DNA from: Rikenellaceae bacterium
GTDB taxonomy: Bacteria; Bacteroidota; Bacteroidia; Bacteroidales; Rikenellaceae
Assembly (NCBI GenBank): GCA_015059945.1
Contig: SUZJ01000004.1
Location: 134,646-198,645, forward strand
Reading direction: 5' to 3'
Length of the DNA stretch: 64,000 bases
The notes below the pieces were generated by a model, which was not told where the DNA came from, searched no databases, and was given only the letters and a program-made list of their open reading frames with translations. Within the stretch, counting starts at the first letter, position 1. Each line of letters begins with the position of its first letter. This document shows positions 2 to 61,440 of this stretch, one piece after another. The translations under genes were made by a program, and so were the position numbers.

Positions 2-835
2 GTGATGATTGTCATCACGGGTGGCGAGGCGCTGTGTCGCAAAGACCTCGAATCAGTCGGGCGCGAGCTCTATAAGCGCGGCTACCCTTGGGGCTTGGTC
101 ACCAACGGAATGTTGCTCACAAGGGAGCGTATGCGCTCGCTTGTAGCTGCGGGTATGCGCTCTATCACCCTCTCTATCGACGGCTTCGAGGAGCAGCACA
201 ACGCCATACGTCGCCACCCACAGAGCTGGCGCAATGCCGAGCGCGCGCTGGAGGTTATGACCACCACCGAAGGCATTGTCTATGACGTGGTTACCTGCGT
301 AGGGCCCCACAATATCGACTCGATGCCCGCCTTCCGCCAGTGGCTCATCGATAAGGGCTGTAAGGCTTGGCGCCTCTTTACGATATTTCCCGTTGGCAGG
401 GCTGCCGAGAACGACGCACTGCAACTCTCGCCCGAGCAGTACCGCAGCCTGATGGAGTTTATCATCGAAACTCGCAAACAGGGGCAAATCAAGTGCAACT
501 ACGCTTGCGAGGGCTTCTTGGGCGACTATGAGTCCGAGGTTAGGGATAACTTCTTTGGCTGTATGGCCGGCGTGAGCATTGCGGGAGTGAAGATTGACGG
601 CTCTATTAGCGGTTGTACGAGCATACGCGCAGGCTTCGACCAAGGCAATATATATAAGGATAACCTGTGGGAGGTGTGGCAGAATGGCTTTGGCGAGTTC
701 CGCGACCGCAGCTGGGCCCGCAAGGGCGAGTGTGCCAACTGCAAGGTGTGGAAATTCTGCAAGGGCAACGGTATGCACCTCTACGACGACGACCACAACC
801 TGCTCCACTGCAACTATAACAAGCTGTGTAGATAA
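2..835 (+). CDS. Radical SAM/SPASM enzyme of the rSAM/lipoprotein system (5' end outside window)
   Basis: This is the C-terminal 277 residues of a radical SAM enzyme; the N-terminal CxxxCxxC cluster motif lies upstream of the window. The visible part starts in the core barrel with the TGGEAL motif (residues 6-11), followed by VTNGMLL and SIDGFEEQHN. The C-terminal part is a SPASM-type auxiliary-cluster region, with cysteines at about 165, 169, 187, 205, 244, 247, 253, 270 and 276 and the motif GNGMH. Such domains are used by enzymes that modify peptides or proteins. From memory the pattern (YDVVTCV, WRLFTIFPVGRA, CEGFLGDYE, GNIY, GNGMH, LLHC) matches TIGR04133, the radical SAM enzyme paired with TIGR04134 lipoproteins. 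Three lipoproteins of that kind lie at 56.5-59.1 kb. The first codon shown is not a real start. Confidence 0.88.
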   Translation: MMIVITGGEALCRKDLESVGRELYKRGYPWGLVTNGMLLTRERMRSLVAAGMRSITLSIDGFEEQHNAIRRHPQSWRNAERALEVMTTTEGIVYDVVTCVGPHNIDSMPAFRQWLIDKGCKAWRLFTIFPVGRAAENDALQLSPEQYRSLMEFIIETRKQGQIKCNYACEGFLGDYESEVRDNFFGCMAGVSIAGVKIDGSISGCTSIRAGFDQGNIYKDNLWEVWQNGFGEFRDRSWARKGECANCKVWKFCKGNGMHLYDDDHNLLHCNYNKLCR

Positions 836-5442: not shown

Positions 5443-6213
5443 ATGAAGCCACAAACAGCCGAGAGAGTTTCGCAGCGCGACGCATCGGACAACTATGTCT
5501 TTCAGCGCTCGTTGCTGGCCTATCACTATGCCGCTTCGCAGGTGAGTGGCCGTGTATTGGAGATTGGTACGGGTAGCGGCTACGGCATTGAGATTATTGC
5601 CCCCACAGCGGCCCACTTTCTGACTATCGACAAGCATAGGCCCGATGAGAGTCTGCTCACAGCCCAGAGCAACGTCGAGTTTAGGCAGCAGACCGTACCC
5701 CCTCTGGCAGGTATTGCCTCGGAGAGCCTCGACTATGTAATCTCGTTCCAAGTGATTGAGCACATAAAGCAAGACGATGCCTTTGTGGCCGAGGTGAGCA
5801 GGGTGTTGCGCAAGGGGGGCAAGTTTATCGTATCGACCCCCAATGCCCCAATGTCACTCACTCGCAACCCTTGGCACGTAAGGGAGTACACCGCCCAGCA
5901 GTTTGACCGGTTGCTCGCGGGCCACTTCGAGAGCGTAGAGCAGTTGGGCGTGGCCGGCAACGACAAGGTGTGGGAGTACTACGAGAAAAACCGCCAAGGC
6001 GTAGAGCGCATAGCCCGTTGGGATATATTCGATTTCCAGCACCGCCTACCCCGCTGGATGTTGCAGATACCCTACGACCTGCTCAACCGCCTAAATAGGC
6101 GCAAGCTGCTGAGCCAAAACACCGAGCTTACGACGGGCATAACAATGGCCGACTATGCAGTAGTGCCCGTTACAGAGAGGTGCTTCGACCTGCTATATGT
6201 AGCCACAAAATAA
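5443..6213 (+). CDS. Class I SAM-dependent methyltransferase
   Basis: This is a 256-residue protein with a Rossmann-fold methyltransferase core. Motif I is LEIGTGSGYG near residues 37-46, and the later methyltransferase motif is YVISFQVIEH, then VLRKGGKFIVSTPN. It resembles Methyltransf_11/UbiE-like enzymes, but nothing in the sequence fixes the substrate. The start at 5443 (MKPQTAERVS) is 23 bases after the CvfB-like stop; an upstream ATG at 5323 would overlap that gene and add a non-conserved leader. A terminator follows. Confidence 0.85.
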   Translation: MKPQTAERVSQRDASDNYVFQRSLLAYHYAASQVSGRVLEIGTGSGYGIEIIAPTAAHFLTIDKHRPDESLLTAQSNVEFRQQTVPPLAGIASESLDYVISFQVIEHIKQDDAFVAEVSRVLRKGGKFIVSTPNAPMSLTRNPWHVREYTAQQFDRLLAGHFESVEQLGVAGNDKVWEYYEKNRQGVERIARWDIFDFQHRLPRWMLQIPYDLLNRLNRRKLLSQNTELTTGITMADYAVVPVTERCFDLLYVATK

Positions 6214-6217
6214 CAAC

Positions 6218-6244
6218 AAAAGCCCCACCGAAGAGGGGCTTTTT
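6218..6244 (+). terminator. Rho-independent terminator after the methyltransferase
   Basis: An AAAAGCCCC / GGGGCTTTT stem with an 8-base loop is followed by more T, 5 bases after the stop codon. Confidence 0.85.
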
Positions 6245-6250
6245 ATCATT

Positions 6251-6290
6251 AAGGACTCTAAGGACTCTAAGGACTTTAAGGACCTTAATG
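6251..6290. repeat. Imperfect 9-base tandem repeat
   Basis: About four copies of AAGGACTCT/AAGGACTTT/AAGGACCTT run head to tail between the terminator and the small lipoprotein gene. No coding potential is seen. A similar style of short repeat (ATAGGAGTT) occurs at about 11752-11800. Confidence 0.7.
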
Positions 6291-6307
6291 AATTGTGTTA
6301 TAACAAG

Positions 6308-6895
6308 CTAACTCTCCCATTCCTCTACGACCACAACATCCACCTCCCAATATGGGGCAGCGCAGCCTTGCAACAAGCGCAGGGTTATGGCATCGTCGAT
6401 GGTCGAATTGACCACATCCCACACAAAGGTCTGCACCGAGCCGTAGATGCTGTTAACCCTTTGGGCAAAGCAGCCGTAGAAGTCGCTCTGCTGCTGGTCG
6501 GTGAGCCCCTTGGGCAGTACCTCCTTCTTTACCAGTTCGTCATAAGGGAATAGGTGGCGCATATTGGTGGCATCAGCTTTGATGTCGGCCACAATAGCTG
6601 CCACAACCACCACCTCTACACTGTCGCCCACCATAGGCATCTCTATAAACTCGACATACGAGGGGTACTGCTCTTCCAGAATGTCGGTCACCTCGTTGGC
6701 AAATACGGCAAACTCCATATCGGTCAGGCTCCTCAGGTAGACCATATCGCGCCATTGGCGCAGCATCTCGCGAGCCTCTTTGCGCTGCTTCTCGTCCCAC
6801 CCCTTGCGGCCACACGAGGGCACCACAACTCCAATAGAAAAGATAAATGCGGTAAGGCCCAGAGCCACCGCTACGGTTTTGATAAATCTCTGCAT
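6308..6895 (-). CDS. Hypothetical lipoprotein
   Basis: This is a 195-residue protein with an N-terminal hydrophobic signal (residues 7-27) and a lipobox-like VVPSC with Cys28, followed by charged residues (GRKGWDEKQRKE). It is therefore predicted to be a lipidated envelope protein. The mature part is mixed alpha/beta with no motif I recognise. The gene stands alone: a divergent TIR gene lies to its right and convergent repeats to its left. I do not know its function. Confidence 0.7.
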   Translation of the reverse strand: MQRFIKTVAVALGLTAFIFSIGVVVPSCGRKGWDEKQRKEAREMLRQWRDMVYLRSLTDMEFAVFANEVTDILEEQYPSYVEFIEMPMVGDSVEVVVVAAIVADIKADATNMRHLFPYDELVKKEVLPKGLTDQQQSDFYGCFAQRVNSIYGSVQTFVWDVVNSTIDDAITLRLLQGCAAPYWEVDVVVVEEWES

Positions 6896-7048: not shown

Positions 7049-8791
7049 ATGAACTACGATGTATTCATCAGCTACCGACGCAAAGATGCAGCCGAGTATG
7101 CCCGACAGATACAACTCAAACTCGAGAACTACGGCTATACCGTATTCCTCGACCACGATGAGCTCAAAGACGGCCGTTTCGACCAGCGCATAATCGATGC
7201 CATTGAGGGGTCGAAGGTCTTTATTGCCCTGCTCACCCCCCTCTATATGTCGCGCTGTGCCGATGCCGAGGACTGGGTGCGCAAAGAGATTGAGTGTGCC
7301 GTAAAGAACAATCTGCACATTGTGCCCGTCAATATCGACCGCCAGTTTGGCGACTTCCCTGCCGACTGTCCTGCCTCGTTGCGCACACACATCGGGCAGC
7401 ACCAATACTCGGAGATTTTCACGGGTCAGCACTTTACGACCACCATGAACGACCTGAACGAAAACCGCCTAAAACCCTATCTGGGTAGCGGCAGTGCACG
7501 CCCCTCGGCTCTGGGCGCCATTGTGCGCATAAGGCCCGATATGGATTGCCGAATGATGAAGTTTGGCGAAGAGGTGGCCTTGTTGCAGGGTGGAGCATAC
7601 AACATTGTGCGACTGATGAAGGGCAAGCACCCACTCGATTTTGTGAGCCTCGACTGCCCCGCCGACCACATCGAGAAGGTCTATGTCGTAGAGGACAACC
7701 AGAGTGAGGATTTCTTTGAGGTAGAGCTCGCCCCTATCAAGGCCAAGCGCCTGAAAGCCATTGAGGATGAGAAGCGTCGCCAGCGCGAAGAGGCCGAGCG
7801 CATCAAGCGCGAAAAAGAGGAGGCCAAACGCAGAGAAGCTGAACGCATAGAAGCCGAGCGCAGGGCCAAAGCCGAGGCCGAGCGCAAGGCCAAAGAGGAG
7901 GCCGAGCGCGCCGAGCGTGAGCGCATTGCCAAAGCCGAAGCCGAGAAGAAAGAGCGCGAACACGAATGGAATGTGAGCAAAGAGAAGAGTCGTGTGACAA
8001 AACTACTCGACGAGGGCAAAGGGCGCGATGGCATCTACACCGTGGGCGACTACTACGACCGCAATGGTGTGAAAGGAGTGGTAATATATGTCCAAGACGG
8101 AAAGGGCAATGGCACTGAGTATGGCTCATGTGGTGTAATTCTCAGCCTCACCGAGAGCGAAGCTCAGTGGGCCGTAGACCGCAACTTTGGCTCGATACTG
8201 CGCAAAGACAACCCAAGCAACTCGTTGGTAAGTCAGAACAGGGGTAACTGGTCAATGTACAACGGAATTGAGAGCAGCAATGCAAGGGCCTTTATGTCGT
8301 TTGATAGATGGCAGGAGCGATTCCCAGCATTCAGCAAAGCCTTCTTGGGCAATACTAATGAATATTTTTGGTACCTGCCGAGCGAGAAATGCCTAAGCCA
8401 GTGCATCAAACCAAATGCCTATAAAATAAATAGAACTCTCAAAGCGATTGCAGAAAAGTCAGCCACAAAAGTTCAACCGATTGGTGGTCGCTATGACTAT
8501 GGCCACGTTCTCAGTGATATTGGTGCACCAACATATTGGAGCTGTAACGAGTACAATAGTACAAATGCAATCTGTGTAAATATGGGACCTTACGGGGGTA
8601 AAAATGAAAATGATGCCAAGATAAGAACCCATAAAGTTAGGGCCGTTAGAGGTTTTAGCGTACAGCGCACCGCCACCGAAAAGGCTAACGAGCAGCGCTG
8701 GCGTCAGTTGGGTATAACCCCCAAACAGTTAACCCGCACAATGAATGGGGAGGATTTATGGCAGCATATTCTTGATATAAGTAAAGGATGA
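7049..8791 (+). CDS. TIR-domain protein with coiled coil and C-terminal FISUMP/DUF1566-like domain
   Basis: This 580-residue protein has three visible parts. Residues 1-145 form a TIR domain beginning MNYDVFISYRRKD. Its WVRKE motif places Glu80 where NADase TIR domains carry the catalytic glutamate. Residues about 150-230 form a small beta-rich, PEGA-like segment (RIRPDMDCRMM, VALLQGGAYNIVRL). Residues about 230-312 are a highly charged Glu/Lys/Arg/Ala coiled coil. Residues about 335-560 (VGDYYDRNGVKGVV, WYLPSEKCL, YWSCNEYNSTNA, VRAVRGFSV) resemble the FISUMP/DUF1566 lectin-like fold used as a sensor or surface module in Bacteroidota. No partner gene of a known TIR defence system (for example a SLOG-type ThsA) is adjacent. 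A role in NAD-based defence or signalling is inferred. Confidence 0.85.
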   Translation: MNYDVFISYRRKDAAEYARQIQLKLENYGYTVFLDHDELKDGRFDQRIIDAIEGSKVFIALLTPLYMSRCADAEDWVRKEIECAVKNNLHIVPVNIDRQFGDFPADCPASLRTHIGQHQYSEIFTGQHFTTTMNDLNENRLKPYLGSGSARPSALGAIVRIRPDMDCRMMKFGEEVALLQGGAYNIVRLMKGKHPLDFVSLDCPADHIEKVYVVEDNQSEDFFEVELAPIKAKRLKAIEDEKRRQREEAERIKREKEEAKRREAERIEAERRAKAEAERKAKEEAERAERERIAKAEAEKKEREHEWNVSKEKSRVTKLLDEGKGRDGIYTVGDYYDRNGVKGVVIYVQDGKGNGTEYGSCGVILSLTESEAQWAVDRNFGSILRKDNPSNSLVSQNRGNWSMYNGIESSNARAFMSFDRWQERFPAFSKAFLGNTNEYFWYLPSEKCLSQCIKPNAYKINRTLKAIAEKSATKVQPIGGRYDYGHVLSDIGAPTYWSCNEYNSTNAICVNMGPYGGKNENDAKIRTHKVRAVRGFSVQRTATEKANEQRWRQLGITPKQLTRTMNGEDLWQHILDISKG

Positions 8792-47076: not shown

Positions 47077-48099
47077 TTAGAGGTCTAAGCCTTTGAAGGT
47101 CTTGCGGCCCAGGGCGTACCGGCCCACAATCCAGCCACCGTAGATTGTCGAGGGGCGAGGGTTAGTCACCACCCCACTCTGCCACAGCCGAGCACGTTTT
47201 TGGTCGAGTTGTGGGCGGCTCTGCCTCCACTCTCGGTGGGCCCGCACCACCGCACCTGCAAACGACCATTGGCCCGTAGCGACATAAACCGCCCACGAGA
47301 GCCAGTCCATAGCCCTGCGTACCGTCAGACGCCAGCGCCCACCCTCGGGCAGGCATTTATACATCATCGAGAGCGAGTTGCGGAAATTGAGAAAAATCTT
47401 GCGGGGCGAGTTATTGGGCAGCGTACCTCCGCCAACGTGGTAGACCACACTACGTGGCTCGACACCAATCGAATAGCCCATAAGTTGCAGTCGCCAGCAG
47501 AGGTCAATCTCCTCCATATGGGCAAAGAAGTCGCCATCCAGTCCGCCCGCCTTGCGCCACGCCTCGGCCCGCACCATCATAGCCGCACCACTTGCCCAAA
47601 AGACCTTGCGGGGTGTATTCCACTGCCCCGAGTCTTGTTCGGTAGTGCCCATAATCCTACCCCTACAAAACGGGTAGCCAAAGCGGTCGATAAATCCGCC
47701 CGAAGCACCCGCATACTCAAACTGCGAGGGATTGTCGTAGGCCAAAATCTTGGGTTGCACTGCCGCCAGCGCAGGGTCGGCATCCATCTGCGCCACAAGT
47801 GGCTGTAGCCACCCATCGGCAGGCTCAACATCGCTATTTAGCAGCACAAACAGTTCGCCATCCAATTGGGCCAGAGCGCGGTTATACCCCTCGGCAAAGC
47901 CGTAGTTTTCGCCCAAGGGGAGCCACCTTACGGTAGCAAACTCCTCGCTCACCACCCTCTCGGAGCCATCGGTAGAGCCATTATCGGCCACCACGACCTC
48001 GGCATCACAACCACAGCAAGTGGCAACCACACGCGGCAGAAAGCGGTGCAAAAACTGCTCGCCATTCCAGTTGAGTATCACCACCTGAACTTTTGCCAT
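47077..48099 (-). CDS. Glycosyltransferase family 2 protein
   Basis: This 340-residue GT-A enzyme has VQVVILNWNGEQFLHRFLP at the N-terminus, VVVADNGSTDGSE, the nucleotide-sugar/metal motif LLNSDVEPADGW (DXD-type) and FFAHMEEIDLCWRLQLMGY near residue 210. The C-terminal region is typical of dTDP-rhamnosyl or similar transferases in polysaccharide synthesis. The sugar is not determinable. ATG at 48097-48099 (MAKVQVVILN) is used; the frame runs on upstream but without homology. Confidence 0.9.
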   Translation of the reverse strand: MAKVQVVILNWNGEQFLHRFLPRVVATCCGCDAEVVVADNGSTDGSERVVSEEFATVRWLPLGENYGFAEGYNRALAQLDGELFVLLNSDVEPADGWLQPLVAQMDADPALAAVQPKILAYDNPSQFEYAGASGGFIDRFGYPFCRGRIMGTTEQDSGQWNTPRKVFWASGAAMMVRAEAWRKAGGLDGDFFAHMEEIDLCWRLQLMGYSIGVEPRSVVYHVGGGTLPNNSPRKIFLNFRNSLSMMYKCLPEGGRWRLTVRRAMDWLSWAVYVATGQWSFAGAVVRAHREWRQSRPQLDQKRARLWQSGVVTNPRPSTIYGGWIVGRYALGRKTFKGLDL

Positions 48100-48118
48100 A
48101 CGCGCTGTTGTGTGTAGA

Positions 48119-49072
48119 TTATTTAGGCAGGCTGTCGTGGGGGTTATAGATAACATCCTCGGCCGAGGGTGTATGTTTCCAGCGATTGTGCGACCAGAGC
48201 CACAGCTCGGGCCTACGACGTATCATATCCTCCAACTTGGCCACATAGCGGTCTACAATCTCCACGTCAGAGATATCCTCTTTGCCATCGTAAATCTGCT
48301 CAAAGCGACAGGTGTAGTACGAGGGCTTCACTTGGTCTATATCAAGCACATACACCGGCATACCGAAGCGTTTGGCATAGTGGCCCATACCGGCAATAAA
48401 GAGTGTGGGCTGATTGAGGAACATACGCCAGCGCTTGTCGCTCAGCTTAATAGTAGACCTCTGGTCGGCAATCAGTCCAATGGCCATCTGTTTCTGCTCC
48501 TTGATGCACTGCAACACCCTACGCCCCAAGTTGAACATAGGTATAGCCTCCATACCAAAGCGGGTGCGCATATGTATCATAAAGCGGTCCATAACCTTGC
48601 TGCTCAAGGGGTGATAGACACCCAGATTGGGGTAGTTGTGCCCAATGGCAAACGAACAGAAATACTCCCACTCGCCATAGTGGCCCAAAGCTCCAATCCA
48701 GCTACTGCTACCCACCTGGCGGTCAAACTCGTCGAGGTTGGTAATGTGCATACGTCGCTTGAGCTCGCGGGGGCTCATACTCGTAAGGTCAATTACATCG
48801 ACAAATATGGTGGCCAAGTGGCGATAGAACTTGCGCTCAATCTCGCGCCTTTCGGCCTCGCTCTTCTTAGGGAATGCCCCCGCCAGGTTGCGCCTAACCA
48901 CCCTCTTGCGGTAACCCACAAGGCGGTAGAGTATGAAGTAGATAAATGGCGCCAATACCTTGTACAATATGCAGTAGGGCAACAAGCCGACCAACTTGGC
49001 CGAGCCCAGCAACAACCAGTAGGCCACCCACTGCAACGGATTCATCTTATCGCCTTTATTGTTTTGTGCCAT
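48119..49072 (-). CDS. Lysophospholipid/lipid A acyltransferase family protein (LpxL/HtrB-like)
   Basis: This 317-residue inner-membrane acyltransferase has an N-terminal hydrophobic segment (residues 12-50) and the catalytic H(x)4E in ALGHYGEWEY (about 128-137). It also has LIADQRSTI and FGMPVYVLDIDQ. The family adds secondary acyl chains to lipid A, and some members make ornithine or phospholipids. It lies 19 bases before the glycosyltransferase gene on the same strand. An internal Met10 is an alternative start. Confidence 0.88.
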   Translation of the reverse strand: MAQNNKGDKMNPLQWVAYWLLLGSAKLVGLLPYCILYKVLAPFIYFILYRLVGYRKRVVRRNLAGAFPKKSEAERREIERKFYRHLATIFVDVIDLTSMSPRELKRRMHITNLDEFDRQVGSSSWIGALGHYGEWEYFCSFAIGHNYPNLGVYHPLSSKVMDRFMIHMRTRFGMEAIPMFNLGRRVLQCIKEQKQMAIGLIADQRSTIKLSDKRWRMFLNQPTLFIAGMGHYAKRFGMPVYVLDIDQVKPSYYTCRFEQIYDGKEDISDVEIVDRYVAKLEDMIRRRPELWLWSHNRWKHTPSAEDVIYNPHDSLPK

Positions 49073-54868: not shown

Positions 54869-56401
54869 ATGGATAGGAAAGTAAGAGTTCGTTTTGCGCC
54901 ATCACCTACGGGCGCACTTCACATTGGCGGTGTTCGTACCGCCCTTTACAACTACCTCTTTGCACGTCAGAGGGGTGGCGATTTCATTCTCCGCATCGAG
55001 GACACCGACTCGACCCGCTACGTTCCCGGGGCCGAGGAGTACATTATGGAGTCGCTCGCTTGGTGTGGTATCAAAATCGACGAGGGCGTGAACGAGGGTG
55101 GCCCCCACGCACCCTATCGCCAGAGCGAGCGTAAAGAGATATACCTCAAATATGCCCTGCAACTTGTCGAGTCGGGCAACGCCTACTACGCTTTCGACAC
55201 CCCCGAAGAGCTCAACGCACTGAGGGCCGAGTTGGAGGCCAAAGGCGAAACATTCTGCTACAACCACGCCGTGCGCGAGCAGCTGGCTACCTCGCTGAGG
55301 TTGAGTGCCGAGGAGGTCGAGGAGCGCAAAGCTCGTGGCGACCAGTGGGTTATCCGCTTCAAGATGCCCGAGAATGAGGTGGTAGAAATGGATGACCTGA
55401 TTCGTGGCCACGTAGAGATGAACACCTCTACTTTGGATGACAAGGTGCTCTACAAGTCGGCCGATGCGCTGCCCACCTACCACTTAGCCAACATCGTCGA
55501 TGACCACCTGATGGAGATTTCGCACGTTATTCGTGGCGAGGAGTGGTTGCCTTCATTGCCCCTGCACTACCTGCTCTACCGAGCATTTGGTTGGGAGGAT
55601 ACAAGGCCCGAGTTTGCCCACCTGCCCCTGCTGCTCAAGCCCACAGGTCAGGGCAAGTTGAGCAAGCGCGATGGCGACAAGATGGGCTTCCCCGTATTCC
55701 CTCTGCGCTTTGTTGCCCCCACGGGCGAGGTTTCGAGGGGTTACCGCGAGGACGGCTACTTCCCCGAGGCATTTATCAATATGCTGGCTCTGCTGGGCTG
55801 GAACCCGGGCACCGAGCAGGAGATTTTCTCGATGGATGAGTTGATTGAGGCCTTCTCGTTGGAGAGGGTTGGCAAGTCGGGCGCACGTTTCAGCCCCGAC
55901 AAGGCACACTGGTTCAACGCACAGTATATGCACACCCGCGACAACAACGAGCTGGCCGACATCTACACCGCACAAGTGGAGGCCAAAGGCTACACCATCT
56001 CGCGCGAGAGTGCTGTGGCTATCGTGTCGCAGATAAAGATGAGGGCCACCTTCCCCGAGGAGTTCTGGGCCCTGTCGTCGTTCCTCTTCGAGGCCCCTGT
56101 GGCATACGACGAGAAGGCGACCAAGAAGTACTGGAAACCCGCAGCCCCCGCAGTGATTGCACAGCTCCGCGAGCAGTTGGCCCAGATGGACCAGTTTGGC
56201 GTGGCCGATATGGAGCAGACCATTGGCGGCTGGATTGCAGCCAACGAGATACCTATGGGCCTGATTATGAACGCTTGGAGGTTGTGTATCGTGGGCGAGT
56301 CCAAAGGCTTCGGTATGTACGATATGTGTGCCGTGCTGGGCAAGGACGAGACCCTGCGCCGCCTCGATGCAGCACTCGCCGCACTGCCCCAGGCCGAGTA
56401 A
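54869..56401 (+). CDS. gltX: Glutamate--tRNA ligase
   Basis: This 510-residue class I synthetase has the HIGH-type motif in [19 protein letters not shown] (residues 8-26) and the KMSKS-type motif [11 protein letters not shown] (about 268-278). It also has the Glu-specific [10 protein letters not shown] and the C-terminal anticodon-binding helical domain. A normal bacterial GluRS. Confidence 0.97.
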
Positions 56402-56527: not shown

Positions 56528-57025
56528 ATGAAGTCAAAATTTCTTATCAAACTGCTCTCGTTGCTCGGCTTTTCGACCGTAGCCACATCGTGCGAACTCG
56601 TTAACGAGATTGGCGGCGGAGGTAACACGTGTGCCTACGGTTGCCCCAGTGCCGACTATGTATTTAATGTAGACGTAAAGGATGCCGAGACCGACGCACC
56701 CATCAGGGGTATGCGAGTGAGCGTAATCCAGCGTCACACCCGCTACAACCCCAGCACTCAAAGCGAGCAGGTGGTTATCGACACACTGGGCGTTGCTGAG
56801 ACCAATGCCGAGGGTAGAGCATTCGTAAACCTCGAAAGAGTCTGGCCCGACTCCACACACGAGGTTGCGGCCGATGACCTCGACGGCGATGCCAATGGCG
56901 GCCACTACTCAACCGTCAGCACCGAGGTGGTGACCGAGAAAGATGACTACGAAAACCCGGGTAGTTGGTACAGCGGCAAGGCTACCCACAACGTAACACT
57001 CCGCACTACCAAACTGGACGAGTAA
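56528..57025 (+). CDS. rSAM/lipoprotein-system putative lipoprotein, paralogue 1
   Basis: This 165-residue small lipoprotein has a signal (KFLIKLLSLLGFSTVAT) and lipobox VATSC (Cys22). A Gly-rich linker leads to a YGCPSADY motif at residues 37-44, then a beta-sandwich-like domain (YVFNVDVKDAETDAPIRGMRV, ending THNVTLRTTK). The GFS...SC signal and the motif just after it match my memory of TIGR04134 lipoproteins, partners of a TIGR04133 radical SAM enzyme (see the gene at 2-835). From SADY onward it is almost identical to paralogue 3 (58562). ATG 56528 is chosen because it starts the signal; an upstream start at 56483 adds a Pro-rich leader. Confidence 0.82.
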   Translation: MKSKFLIKLLSLLGFSTVATSCELVNEIGGGGNTCAYGCPSADYVFNVDVKDAETDAPIRGMRVSVIQRHTRYNPSTQSEQVVIDTLGVAETNAEGRAFVNLERVWPDSTHEVAADDLDGDANGGHYSTVSTEVVTEKDDYENPGSWYSGKATHNVTLRTTKLDE

Positions 57026-57039
57026 TCCTATCGCAATGC

Positions 57040-57079
57040 AACGGAGCAGCACATCTTTCGTGTCGCTCCGTTGTTTTTT
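57040..57079 (+). terminator. Terminator after lipoprotein paralogue 1
   Basis: CAACGGAGC pairs with GCTCCGTTG around a 16-base loop, followed by six T. It separates paralogue 1 from the next lipoprotein gene. Confidence 0.82.
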
Positions 57080-57293
57080 GGGGTAGTTTTAGTTCACCTC
57101 TCCCTAATATGCCGAGGTGTACAATTTTACACACTCTATAGGCAGCATTTCATCGGCACACACAAATTTCACCCCAAACAAGCACTTTGTGGCTCAACAA
57201 TTTGCATTTTCACACAGTTTTGTATTATATTGCAATCGACAACTTAATTTGGGGGACTGCCCCACCCTGTAACCTACTAAAAACAATAAGGCT

Positions 57294-58046
57294 ATGAAAA
57301 GATTTTTATTTTTAGCACTACTGCCAATGTTGTTGGTGGGGTGCGAGCCTGGCGAACCCGGGGGTGACTATCTAAAACCATCTAAATGGAGTGTATTCAC
57401 CGCACATAATGGCGCTTCTTATAGAGCTCCAAAGTTGTTTGCTATATTTGATTACGAACATCCGATAGGGATTGTAAAAAAGTGGGAAACACTCAATGTG
57501 GATTTTTTGAGTAATCAAGATGTATTTCCATTAGCTTTGGGTTATGACGGTAGTACATTTATGTATCACAAATCACCTTATCCGGAAGACCATATTGGAG
57601 TAGTAATCACAAAGGAGGACTGCGAAAACGAACTTTACAAAGAATTTGCTACGACAGCCCAATTGTTTCATTTGGCTGAGCAATTAGTCGATGATGAGTA
57701 TTCGAATGTTTACATTCACGCCGAGGTTGTCGATGTGATTATCACCGCAGATGTACCTTTGTTTGGTCGTGAGGCTGGTAGCAATCTGATGGATAAATTT
57801 GGCATAATGGGTTTTTATGAGTTGGTTGATTTTGCCACCTATGATGTGTTAGATGCCGAGATAAAATTACAAACAGCAGATAAAATCAAGAAAACTCTAT
57901 TGCAAAAAGGGTATCACTTGCGACTCGTTGAAATTCCTGAGGAACAATACGACAAAGTGACATTCACTATCACAATAGACATACGCCGCCCCGACGACAA
58001 ATTGGTGGCGCTCACCAACAGCATAACCGTAGAGTTTGAGAACTAA
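57294..58046 (+). CDS. Hypothetical AT-rich lipoprotein
   Basis: This 250-residue protein has signal MKRFLFLALLPMLLVGC (Cys17, lipobox LVGC) and a short Pro/Gly linker. The large mature domain is unrelated to the flanking lipoproteins and lacks the YGCP motif. The coding DNA is clearly AT-rich until about 57960, after which composition becomes like the core. This suggests a transferred gene whose 3' end was joined to local sequence. Downstream, paralogues 2 and 3 follow after 21 bases, so they may share its transcript. The function is unknown. Confidence 0.78.
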   Translation: MKRFLFLALLPMLLVGCEPGEPGGDYLKPSKWSVFTAHNGASYRAPKLFAIFDYEHPIGIVKKWETLNVDFLSNQDVFPLALGYDGSTFMYHKSPYPEDHIGVVITKEDCENELYKEFATTAQLFHLAEQLVDDEYSNVYIHAEVVDVIITADVPLFGREAGSNLMDKFGIMGFYELVDFATYDVLDAEIKLQTADKIKKTLLQKGYHLRLVEIPEEQYDKVTFTITIDIRRPDDKLVALTNSITVEFEN

Positions 58047-58067
58047 TCTACCCTCAAAAAAGCTAAT

Positions 58068-58562
58068 ATGAAGTCGAAATTTACACTCAAACTGCTCTCG
58101 TTGCTCGGATTCTCGAGCGCAGTAGCATCGTGCGGGATGGAGCCTATGTATGGTTGTCCACCTCCCCCTTCTATGTATGGTTGCCCGGCGCCTGCATTTG
58201 TAGACTACACCTACGAGGTGGAGGTCAAAGATGCAGATACCAATGCGCCCATCGAGGGTATGCGTGTATGTGCCATATTGCGCGAAACAGGCATACACAA
58301 CTCGGCAACAGGGCAATACGAATCGTGGGCAGACACCCTCGCCACAGGAACAACCAACAAGCAAGGAAAAGTCACACTTGTGGCACAAGACCACGTTGCC
58401 GCAACACACGAAATTACAGCCGACGACATTGATGGGGCCAAGAACGGTGGACACTACGCAACCGTGGGCACCGAGGTGAAAACCAAGCTTGATGATACGC
58501 TTGGCACCGACGGTAACACCACCTACAACATAGTCCTCAAAACCTCTAAACAAAGCGAATAA
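58068..58562 (+). CDS. rSAM/lipoprotein-system putative lipoprotein, paralogue 2 (double MYGCP motif)
   Basis: This is a 164-residue lipoprotein. The signal is KFTLKLLSLLGFSSAVA with Cys22 in VASC. The post-lipobox stretch contains MYGCP twice (residues 27-31 and 36-40), separated by a proline run, where paralogues 1 and 3 have YGCP once. The mature domain (YTYEVEVKDADTNAPIEGMRV, YATVGTEVKTKLDD) is homologous to but diverged from the other two. The stop TAA overlaps the start ATG of paralogue 3 by one base, so they are coupled. Confidence 0.82.
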   Translation: MKSKFTLKLLSLLGFSSAVASCGMEPMYGCPPPPSMYGCPAPAFVDYTYEVEVKDADTNAPIEGMRVCAILRETGIHNSATGQYESWADTLATGTTNKQGKVTLVAQDHVAATHEITADDIDGAKNGGHYATVGTEVKTKLDDTLGTDGNTTYNIVLKTSKQSE

Positions 58563-59050
58563 TGAGTACAAAGACCAAAGTCATTCAGCAACTACTGACA
58601 CTGCTCGGTTTCTCGGCAGTGGCGACCTCGTGCGAATTTGTGGGAGCAGCCGAATATGGATGTCCCAGTGCCGACTATGTATTTAATGTAGACGTAAAAG
58701 ATGCCGATACCGATGCCCCCATCAGAGGTATGCGTGTGAGTGTTATCCAGCGTCACACCCGCTACAACCCCAGCACTCAAAGCGAGCAGGTGGTTATCGA
58801 CACGCTGGGAGTCGCTGAGACCAATGCCGAGGGCAGAGCCTTCGTAAACCTCGAAAGAGTCTGGCCCGACTCCACACACGAGGTTGCGGCCGATGACCTC
58901 GACGGCGATGCCAATGGCGGCCACTACTCGACCGTCAGCACCGAGGTGGTGACCGAGAAGGATGACTACGAAAACCCGGGTAGTTGGTACAGCGGCAAGG
59001 CTACCCACAACGTAACACTCCGCACTACCAAGCAACAAAGCGAACAGTAG
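58562..59050 (+). CDS. rSAM/lipoprotein-system putative lipoprotein, paralogue 3
   Basis: This is a 162-residue lipoprotein. The signal is different in detail (MSTKTKVIQQLLTLLGFSAVATSC, Cys24) but keeps GFS...SC, followed by YGCPSADY at 32-39. From there to the end it is almost identical to paralogue 1 in protein and in DNA, while the first 35 codons differ. This points to recent gene conversion or duplication of the mature domain. It is the last gene of the cluster, with a terminator 32 bases on. Confidence 0.82.
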   Translation: MSTKTKVIQQLLTLLGFSAVATSCEFVGAAEYGCPSADYVFNVDVKDADTDAPIRGMRVSVIQRHTRYNPSTQSEQVVIDTLGVAETNAEGRAFVNLERVWPDSTHEVAADDLDGDANGGHYSTVSTEVVTEKDDYENPGSWYSGKATHNVTLRTTKQQSEQ

Positions 59051-60081: not shown

Positions 60082-60156
60082 CGAGTATGTTAAGTCTTTT
60101 TCGAACTTTGAGCGTTGTATATTCGGAAGCGCGTTTCCAACAAACGAAAACAAATT

Positions 60157-60669
60157 ATGAAACTAACAACCGAAAACAAACAACTCACCCGCCTCGCTGA
60201 GCTAATGCAGTCCGAGCGCGATCATCTGTTTCGATACGCCTGTTATAGGTTGGGATCTGCCACCGAAGCTGATGACATGATGCAAGACCTCTACCTGCGG
60301 CTCTCGAAACAAGGCGCCCGACTTGCCGAGATTGAAGACCTAAAAGGCTATGTCTATCGTTCATTGACAAATAGTTGCACCTCAGCCTTACGCTCTCGAC
60401 GACAGTTTGCGTCCACCGAAACGCTCGACACATTGAGTAGTGACGACCTCGCTCCGAAAGATTTCGAACAAGAATTCCAACTGATTGAGCGACTGATGGT
60501 GCACCTACCCGATGAGCAGAGCGAGGTGATTCGATTGCGAATCTATGGCGGTCGTCAATTTGACGAGATTGCCTCGATTTGCAACATTCCTCTCACAACG
60601 GCCAAATCGCGTTTCCGCTATGGCATTGACAAGTTGCGTGAAGCCCTCGAAAAGCGCGGGCTGATTTAA
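60157..60669 (+). CDS. RNA polymerase sigma factor, ECF subfamily
   Basis: This 170-residue sigma-70-like factor has region 2 at about 17-85 (LFRYACYRLGSATEADDMMQDLYLRL, LKGYVYRSLTNSCTSALRSR) and region 4 at about 110-165 (LPDEQSEVIRLRIYGGRQFDEIASICNIPLTTAKSRFRYGIDKLREAL). There is no region 3. The frame begins with TTG at 60115, but ATG at 60157 is chosen. The next gene, 24 bases downstream, encodes a single-span membrane protein likely to be its regulator. Codon use looks less GC-biased than the core. Confidence 0.9.
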   Translation: MKLTTENKQLTRLAELMQSERDHLFRYACYRLGSATEADDMMQDLYLRLSKQGARLAEIEDLKGYVYRSLTNSCTSALRSRRQFASTETLDTLSSDDLAPKDFEQEFQLIERLMVHLPDEQSEVIRLRIYGGRQFDEIASICNIPLTTAKSRFRYGIDKLREALEKRGLI

Positions 60670-60693
60670 CTCTCTGTAAAAAAGACTAACATT

Positions 60694-61440
60694 ATGAAAA
60701 CTAACAACAATTTAGACAATTTTTCGGACAATCGCGTTGAGAATCTTCTCACCCCGCGTTTCGCCCCCACCACCTCACGCGAATTCAAAGCGCCCGCACC
60801 GCGCCGACGACCACTCTGGCAGGCAGTACGCATTAGTGCCGTTGCCGCTGCGGTCGCAGTGGTAGTTGTCATCGGCATTAGCAGCGTGCAGACCAGCACC
60901 GCCAGCGAGGTGGTAGAACGAGCAATTACTCAACTGCTCGAATCGGATAACTTCCTCGTTTATTTCACCGCAAATGTTGTCGAGAACAAGAACTCACAGG
61001 AACTCTATGATCTTGATTTCAACGGCACTCCGATGCAGGGCACCGTCGAGATTAGCAAAGAGGAGTCGAAAGTCAAAATGGCTATCAAATGGCAGGACAA
61101 GGCTCGTTCTATGGAACTCTATGACGGCGAAAGCTATCGACGTTACCAGAACGGGCAGTTAGTACTTGAACGTCCCCACGGAGGAATCGACCTCACTCCG
61201 TTCGCTACGATTGACAAATTGAAGGATTACGCTTCGTTAACGGGTATTCTGCTGAAATTCCGCGAGGAGGGCGATATGATTTTGGTTAGCACTAAGGGCG
61301 ACAAGGTTGGGATCGTTGCTCGTTTCTCAAAGAGCGAGGGTCGTCTGCTCGGTGTCGAGTGCTCAGGACTATACAACGGGCAGCAGGTTACGGTACTCAC
61401 CGTTGTTCAGATTGATTTCGATGTGCCACCCACCGAGTAA
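60694..61440 (+). CDS. Single-span membrane protein, putative anti-sigma regulator
   Basis: This 248-residue protein has a cytosolic N-terminus of about 45 residues with a basic Pro/Arg patch, one membrane span (about 47-68, ISAVAAAVAVVVVIGISSV) and a periplasmic domain. The domain (LLESDNFLVYFTANVVENKNSQELYDL, MILVSTKGDKVGIVARFSKSEGRLLGVE) has a LolA/RseB-like beta pattern. Being cotranscribed with an ECF sigma gene suggests an anti-sigma role. The zinc-finger anti-sigma motif is not visible, so this is an inference from context. Confidence 0.72.
   Translation: MKTNNNLDNFSDNRVENLLTPRFAPTTSREFKAPAPRRRPLWQAVRISAVAAAVAVVVVIGISSVQTSTASEVVERAITQLLESDNFLVYFTANVVENKNSQELYDLDFNGTPMQGTVEISKEESKVKMAIKWQDKARSMELYDGESYRRYQNGQLVLERPHGGIDLTPFATIDKLKDYASLTGILLKFREEGDMILVSTKGDKVGIVARFSKSEGRLLGVECSGLYNGQQVTVLTVVQIDFDVPPTE

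Follow-up and report, generated by a model that had tools for sequence, protein, structure and literature searches.

TIGR04134 lipoproteins carry a conserved X-Tyr-Gly motif, usually followed by a proline, rather than the narrower YGCP. The window analysed here, the entire stretch of 64,000 nucleotides from a Rikenellaceae bacterium, holds three of these lipoproteins next to a gltX-like gene and, at its left edge, part of a TIGR04133 radical SAM/SPASM enzyme; a fourth lipoprotein adjoins the enzyme just outside the window. Taken as a whole, the arrangement would be best explained by a Tyr-Gly-directed maturase that serves the adjacent as well as the distal lipoproteins, a reading from sequence comparison to which we give an even chance. 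The pair of families is a known one and its layout is better explained; what is new is a candidate site and a hypothesis on the chemistry.

The enzyme and the four lipoproteins

The features discussed are as follows.

2..835, + strand: TIGR04133 radical SAM/SPASM enzyme, 3' part, cut by the left window edge
54869..56401, + strand: gene resembling gltX (named by eye); flanks the distal cluster on its upstream side and does not belong to the system
56528..57025, + strand: TIGR04134 lipoprotein copy 1, 165 aa, AYGCP motif, 78.7 bits
57294..58046, + strand: lipoprotein-like ORF between copies 1 and 2, 250 aa
58068..58562, + strand: TIGR04134 lipoprotein copy 2, 164 aa, MYGCP motif twice, 50.5 bits
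58562..59050, + strand: TIGR04134 lipoprotein copy 3, 162 aa, EYGCP motif, 81.8 bits
G000:C5:133944-134360, outside the window: fourth TIGR04134 lipoprotein, 138 aa, CYGVEP motif, 46.3 bits

The whole enzyme gene (G000:C5:134398-135480, 360 aa) starts 248 bp left of the window and scores 557.9 bits on TIGR04133 against a curated cut-off of 425, in agreement with an earlier note on this DNA, which had recognized a radical SAM/SPASM enzyme at the left edge. The same note had described shared lipoboxes and YGCP in the three distal lipoproteins, and copies 1, 2 and 3 indeed have in common an LLGFS...SC signal peptide and a YGCP. All three, like the fourth lipoprotein, exceed the curated TIGR04134 cut-off of 39.8 bits, hence both models that the note had proposed to run match. 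The note's view of a pair that is simply split is not confirmed: the fourth lipoprotein ends 37 bp before the enzyme, and a partnership over 56 kb without a local partner is rejected. That the enzyme has no further precursor next to it is correct inside the window only, because this member lies just left of it. A nearby TIGR04134 lipoprotein, which belongs to the definition of TIGR04133, is thus present, beyond the window edge. The note had named two findings that would speak against its proposal, and the first, a closer lipoprotein left of the window, was made; the second, membership of the three distal genes in another family, was not. The listing of copies over the whole genome (assembly 92.66% complete; profile built from 10 family members) gives four TIGR04134 lipoproteins and one TIGR04133 enzyme, and the note's suggestion that one enzyme may serve several substrates is the economical reading. 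All four lipoproteins bear X-Tyr-Gly.

Within the distal cluster, copies 2 and 3 overlap, the stop of the former with the start of the latter. Between the motif and a point near the stop, copies 1 and 3 are identical in 355 of 372 DNA positions (95.4%). Identity falls to 54 of 91 (59%) for the signal and linker, and to 37 of 70 aligned bases (53%) for the 3' flank. The pattern suggests a recent duplication or gene conversion whose start lies close to the motif, so that signal and linker stay different. The usual TIGR04134 lipoprotein domain is weakly Ig-like (CarboxypepD_reg 4.5e-4, Big_1 0.016, both under the Pfam cut-offs); a related-locus search with copy 3 as query found nothing. The ORF between copies 1 and 2 matches no family over cut-off, has no YGxP motif and finds no match among the 22 genus loci read. 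The cluster is followed by a sigma-70-like factor and a further gene (60115-61440), and elsewhere in the window (7049-8791) a 580-aa protein has a TIR-like start; these names were given by eye.

The X-Tyr-Gly motif in enzyme loci

The YGCP of the earlier note was correctly seen and too narrowly drawn, the conserved part being X-Tyr-Gly with a proline often soon after. A first parse of 138 family ORFs lists 149 YG dipeptides after the lipobox, some of which sit deep in the domain and are due to chance. Among the 149, the preceding residue is Met in 68 cases, Glu in 32, Cys in 20 and Ala in 12; the following residue is Thr in 41, Val in 37 and Cys in 29, and a proline stands at +3 in 110. These counts bear on a thioether reaction at the Cys of YGCP, similar to that of sactipeptides or ranthipeptides. 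Such a reaction would fit the YGCP of all three distal copies, but Thr and Val are commoner than Cys after YG and the adjacent partner reads CYGVEP. With Cys in those 29 of 149 instances, a conserved substrate Cys outside the lipobox was not found; we reject the thioether as the general reaction and consider it extremely unlikely here.

The cleaned set comprises 126 lipoproteins, after removal of 12 of the 138 ORFs: two overlaps and ten whose signal was not parsed by the script (nine of these with YG, the other, L041_6919, with YA). A YG at most 70 residues from the lipid Cys is found by script in 123 of the 126 and on reading in 121, as the instances in L066 and L008_7238 are chance matches. 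YGxP occurs in 101; of the 25 others, 14 read [ML]YGVR with a proline one or two residues past the Arg. The signal contains LGF in 104 of the 126 family lipoproteins versus 1 of 38 other lipoprotein-like ORFs from the same loci. Of these 38, three have YG within 70 residues and one has YGxP. The latter, L045_6155, is a tiny MYGTP lipoprotein missed by the family HMM and itself a motif bearer, hence the control set is slightly contaminated. It occupies positions 6155-6433 of an enzyme locus that also has two long lipoproteins. Family members without the motif are L015_6625, L029_7084, L086_5694 and L008_7238, while L066 and L041 have YA instead. A domain-only HMM reached into the motif, and its count of 9 of 106 is therefore no result.

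Because signal and motif are part of the family HMM, the loci were in addition examined by position. An X-Tyr-Gly ORF is present in 96 of the 98 enzyme loci read, a count that rests on the family-ORF search plus reading and not on regular expressions. A first expression gave 90 of the 98, with L066 false (VYGDD) and L117 in the wrong frame; a second gave 74 upstream and 91 anywhere, missing known bearers (L005) and taking chance YG. Within the window's taxonomic family, 63 of 65 enzyme loci have a family ORF bearing the motif. This motif-bearing ORF is adjacent in 58 of the 65, elsewhere in five and absent in two; one of the 58 (L011) is probably an overlapping frame, with the true lipoprotein 581 bp upstream. 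The two exceptions are L065, cut off at its start by a contig end, and L066, which has MYAS. An X-Tyr-Gly ORF is present in each of the 33 other loci. These loci comprise 28 loci of the order and phylum samples (the best-scoring places of the 80 + 3 enzyme-bearing genomes, leaving out two genus members already counted), L096, L097, and the Treponema saccharophilum, Parabacteroides and Phocaeicola records.

The X-Tyr-Gly ORFs of enzyme loci occur in several unlike proteins. Beside the clade of enzymes associated with tiny lipoproteins and its sister pair, 21 of 21 loci have, judged by position only, a directly upstream ORF of 74-140 codons with a signal and [ML]YGV; one such ORF searched against Pfam gave no hit. 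Four loci (L118, L121, L123, L127; three of them in one genus) encode a charged, helical-looking lipoprotein with VYGSP or LYGTP that replaces the usual domain. In L099 the lipid Cys is gone, and LGF and EYGV are kept. The lipoproteins might be partners of another kind, with the enzyme at work elsewhere, and it is consistent with this that the literature searched reports a modification for no member. We consider this very unlikely, however, as unlike carriers that share only signal and X-Tyr-Gly are what one expects of a substrate motif. We regard it as quite likely that the motif is the modified site. Both substrate shapes can stand beside a single enzyme: in tandem before it, L122 has two long EYGTP lipoproteins and L124 has one, in each case together with a tiny MVMYGTP lipoprotein.

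Distribution, substrate range and gene order

Among 200 genomes of the family to which the window belongs, 118 have the enzyme, and among 344 of the order 80 do (E <= 1e-80 in both cases); in a phylum sample it is present in 3 of 395 genomes, the window's among them. A TIGR04133 enzyme and its lipoprotein also occur in a spirochaete, on the Treponema saccharophilum plasmid pTS1 (L088 4803-7095); the adjoining gene is annotated as a Mpi-family serine recombinase, and transfer between phyla is possible. Of 23 genus members, 14 have enzyme and lipoproteins, eight have neither, and one (G086) has lipoproteins only. The last is set aside as an enzyme-less counter-example, its contig ending inside the gene that adjoins the enzyme in four relatives. 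The eight genomes without the system show no such lipoprotein in the 1.0-1.5 kb after gltX. In 11 of the 14, including the window's genome, one enzyme is accompanied by distal clusters, and in G019, G037 and G071 one long lipoprotein lies near the enzyme. In a gltX tree built without these three long-type genus members, all 12 genomes that have distal copies fall into a single clade. The co-occurrence of enzyme and distal copies therefore amounts to few events, which weakens it as strong evidence.

A tree of 68 TIGR04133 enzymes and three outgroup rows contains a clade beside short CYG lipoproteins (15 rows, 99/99), to which the window's enzyme belongs, and a clade beside tiny MYGV lipoproteins (19 rows, 100/99); the remaining enzymes are mostly found beside long lipoproteins. 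Genomes with distal clusters therefore pair a short-type enzyme with long-type lipoproteins. The mirror case is seen in four genomes (G145, G148, G153, G156) that encode a short-type lipoprotein and whose sole enzyme lies elsewhere, beside long-type lipoproteins; the 9-10 kb around the short-type lipoprotein contain no enzyme match (E <= 1e-3). Since the distal-cluster genomes and the mirror case point in the same direction, the enzymes may accept both kinds of lipoprotein, with a weight that is limited by draft genomes (87-89% complete) and likely relatedness.

A different reading is that the enzyme serves the adjacent lipoprotein only, the other three being unmodified remnants of a system that no longer has its own enzyme. 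Long lipoproteins do occur in other genera next to enzymes from other clades, all enzymes of the genus members with distal copies belong to the short-lipoprotein clade, and some distal copies are decayed: L015_6625 of G083 is a distal copy without YG, and the distal lipoprotein of another relative (G053:C24:148862-149359) has an in-frame TAG, which may be decay or a sequence error. This reading appears improbable in view of the 24 of 25 distal copies in the 12 genomes that keep YG, several of them doubled, and of the four genomes that keep a short-type lipoprotein with only a long-type enzyme. The distal copies are thus likely to be substrates.

The distal cluster follows the gltX-like gene in 11 of 11 genus members read (L010, L013, L015, L016, L018, L020, L022, L024, L025, L026, L028), and to the left of the pair of short lipoprotein and enzyme all 10 relatives read have the same neighbouring genes. 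The right neighbour of the pair varies. It is a homologue of the window gene at 47077-48156 in four of the ten (L012, L023, L025, L028); in L009 the pair is followed by other genes that are homologues of window genes at 15-17 kb; and L014, L017, L019, L021 and L027 show no match right of the pair in the 0.5-5 kb covered. The order in relatives is short lipoprotein, enzyme, a block of other genes, gltX and long lipoproteins, complete in two genomes and begun in two more. In the two complete cases (L025, L028) the block leads on to gltX and the distal cluster within a total of 8-10 kb, while the window has about 46 kb of other genes in between, from a uvrA-like gene (by eye) onward. The distance between enzyme and cluster therefore looks like the product of rearrangement. 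Since the four relatives that have the block are spread over both sub-branches formed by the enzymes of the genus, the simplest reading, though not a proof, is a locus that was compact at first and was rearranged in the lineage of the window and in others.

Proposed modification and related systems

The mechanism we propose starts from what is observed, namely family membership, gene order and the distribution of the motif. In it, the TIGR04133 enzyme would act as a peptide maturase on every TIGR04134 lipoprotein of the genome, both its direct neighbour and the three next to gltX. Its target would be the X-Tyr-Gly motif after the lipidated cysteine, and the unusual LGF-bearing signal peptide would serve as recognition leader. 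The order of events would place the modification before export and lipidation. The leading candidate for the chemistry, by analogy with spliceases, is excision of tyramine; should the site be right, we put this at somewhat below an even chance. The product may be a reactive ketoamide at the cell surface, perhaps, as a speculation, a protease trap or a cross-linker. The wider reading, which includes a single enzyme acting on dispersed substrates of unlike architecture, is a tentative one.

TIGR04103 is taken here to equal IPR026482, the class of PlpX. On a Nostoc plasmid, a TIGR04103 enzyme (853 bits) is encoded together with a 71-aa protein and a precursor of the Nif11 type, which ends in IALYGLPPELF and so contains LYGLP. 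According to the published description, natural sites of the PlpXY splicease are MYG and LYG, tyramine is excised with a loss of 135.0757 Da, tags include PIRP-x-YGLPI, and a ten-residue tag works without a leader (PMC10533398). When the tag was placed in FtsZ, PlpXY did not accept most of the positions (PMC10533398), hence X-Tyr-Gly alone is not enough. PlpX belongs to the SPASM enzymes of IPR026482; it occurs together with an RRE protein and with precursors that bear Nif11 or nitrile-hydratase-like leaders (PMC11002830). A review terms the splicease reaction a complex rearrangement (PMC8326336).

Tyr-Gly could also be the site of another radical SAM reaction, such as a cross-link at Tyr or Gly, epimerisation or decarboxylation of Tyr. 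Only Tyr and Gly are near-universal in the motif, and the enzyme is no nearer to TIGR04103 than to several other SPASM families: it scores 121.5 bits on TIGR04103, far below the cut-off of 725, and 130.0 on TIGR04053, 129.3 on heme b synthase, 125.9 on NirJ2 and 118.8 on TIGR03913. However, no other radical SAM class is known to have a bare X-Tyr-Gly site, and the Nostoc LYGLP and the splicease tag are close to MYGVP and MYGTP. We consider another chemistry at this site somewhat unlikely.

The trees give no specific tie between TIGR04133 and TIGR04103, and a splicease clade among the enzymes gains no support from them. In a SPASM tree of 21 proteins, with long branches flagged and heme-type families outside the sample, TIGR04133, TIGR04103, TIGR03913-type enzymes and an Agathobacter protein are split from the TIGR04053 and TIGR04347 types (100/99); on the same set, holding TIGR04133, TIGR04103 and TIGR03913 together without the Agathobacter row is just rejected (p-AU 0.046). 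A pattern search for the PlpA3 core found nothing. All 8 DUF1843 peptides read next to enzymes of the TIGR03913 type carry xY[GAM] near the N-terminus (4 YG, 2 YM, 2 YA); sites of such pairs in Azospirillum and Aureibacter (L128, L130, L091) are possible relatives in chemistry.

NCBIfam labels both TIGR04133 and TIGR04134 as 'hypoth_equivalog'. Our literature search, with most subscription papers outside it and absence thus unproven, yielded no product or modification for either. With X-Tyr-Gly as a candidate site, and a candidate reaction whose mass shift is exactly defined, the question of this pair becomes directly testable. If tyramine excision at Tyr-Gly is right, backbone editing would be routine for lipoproteins in many bacteria, which would offer many natural splicease variants for protein labelling.

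Compared with known systems, PlpX/PlpY and the TIGR04103 nif11-class maturase 3 share with the window's enzyme a radical SAM protein with a SPASM domain and an X-Tyr-Gly site that is often followed by proline. They differ in the leader, which is Nif11 or nitrile-hydratase-like in those systems and is here a lipoprotein signal; against NCBIfam, the four lipoproteins match TIGR04134 and one weak lipoprotein model, and no leader model. PlpX works with the RRE protein PlpY, whereas no PlpY-like gene is seen among the neighbours of the window's enzyme, which were judged by reading only. The TIGR03913 GDL-motif peptide maturase is likewise a SPASM enzyme, with xY[GAM] in the neighbouring DUF1843 peptides, but its peptides are short and no signal is seen in them. 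With respect to the TIGR04133/TIGR04134 pair as defined in NCBIfam, the present system agrees in that enzyme and all four lipoproteins exceed the curated cut-offs and one lipoprotein is adjacent. It differs in having three more lipoproteins at gltX, 56 kb off, and in that some enzyme partners in relatives share little beyond signal and X-Tyr-Gly.
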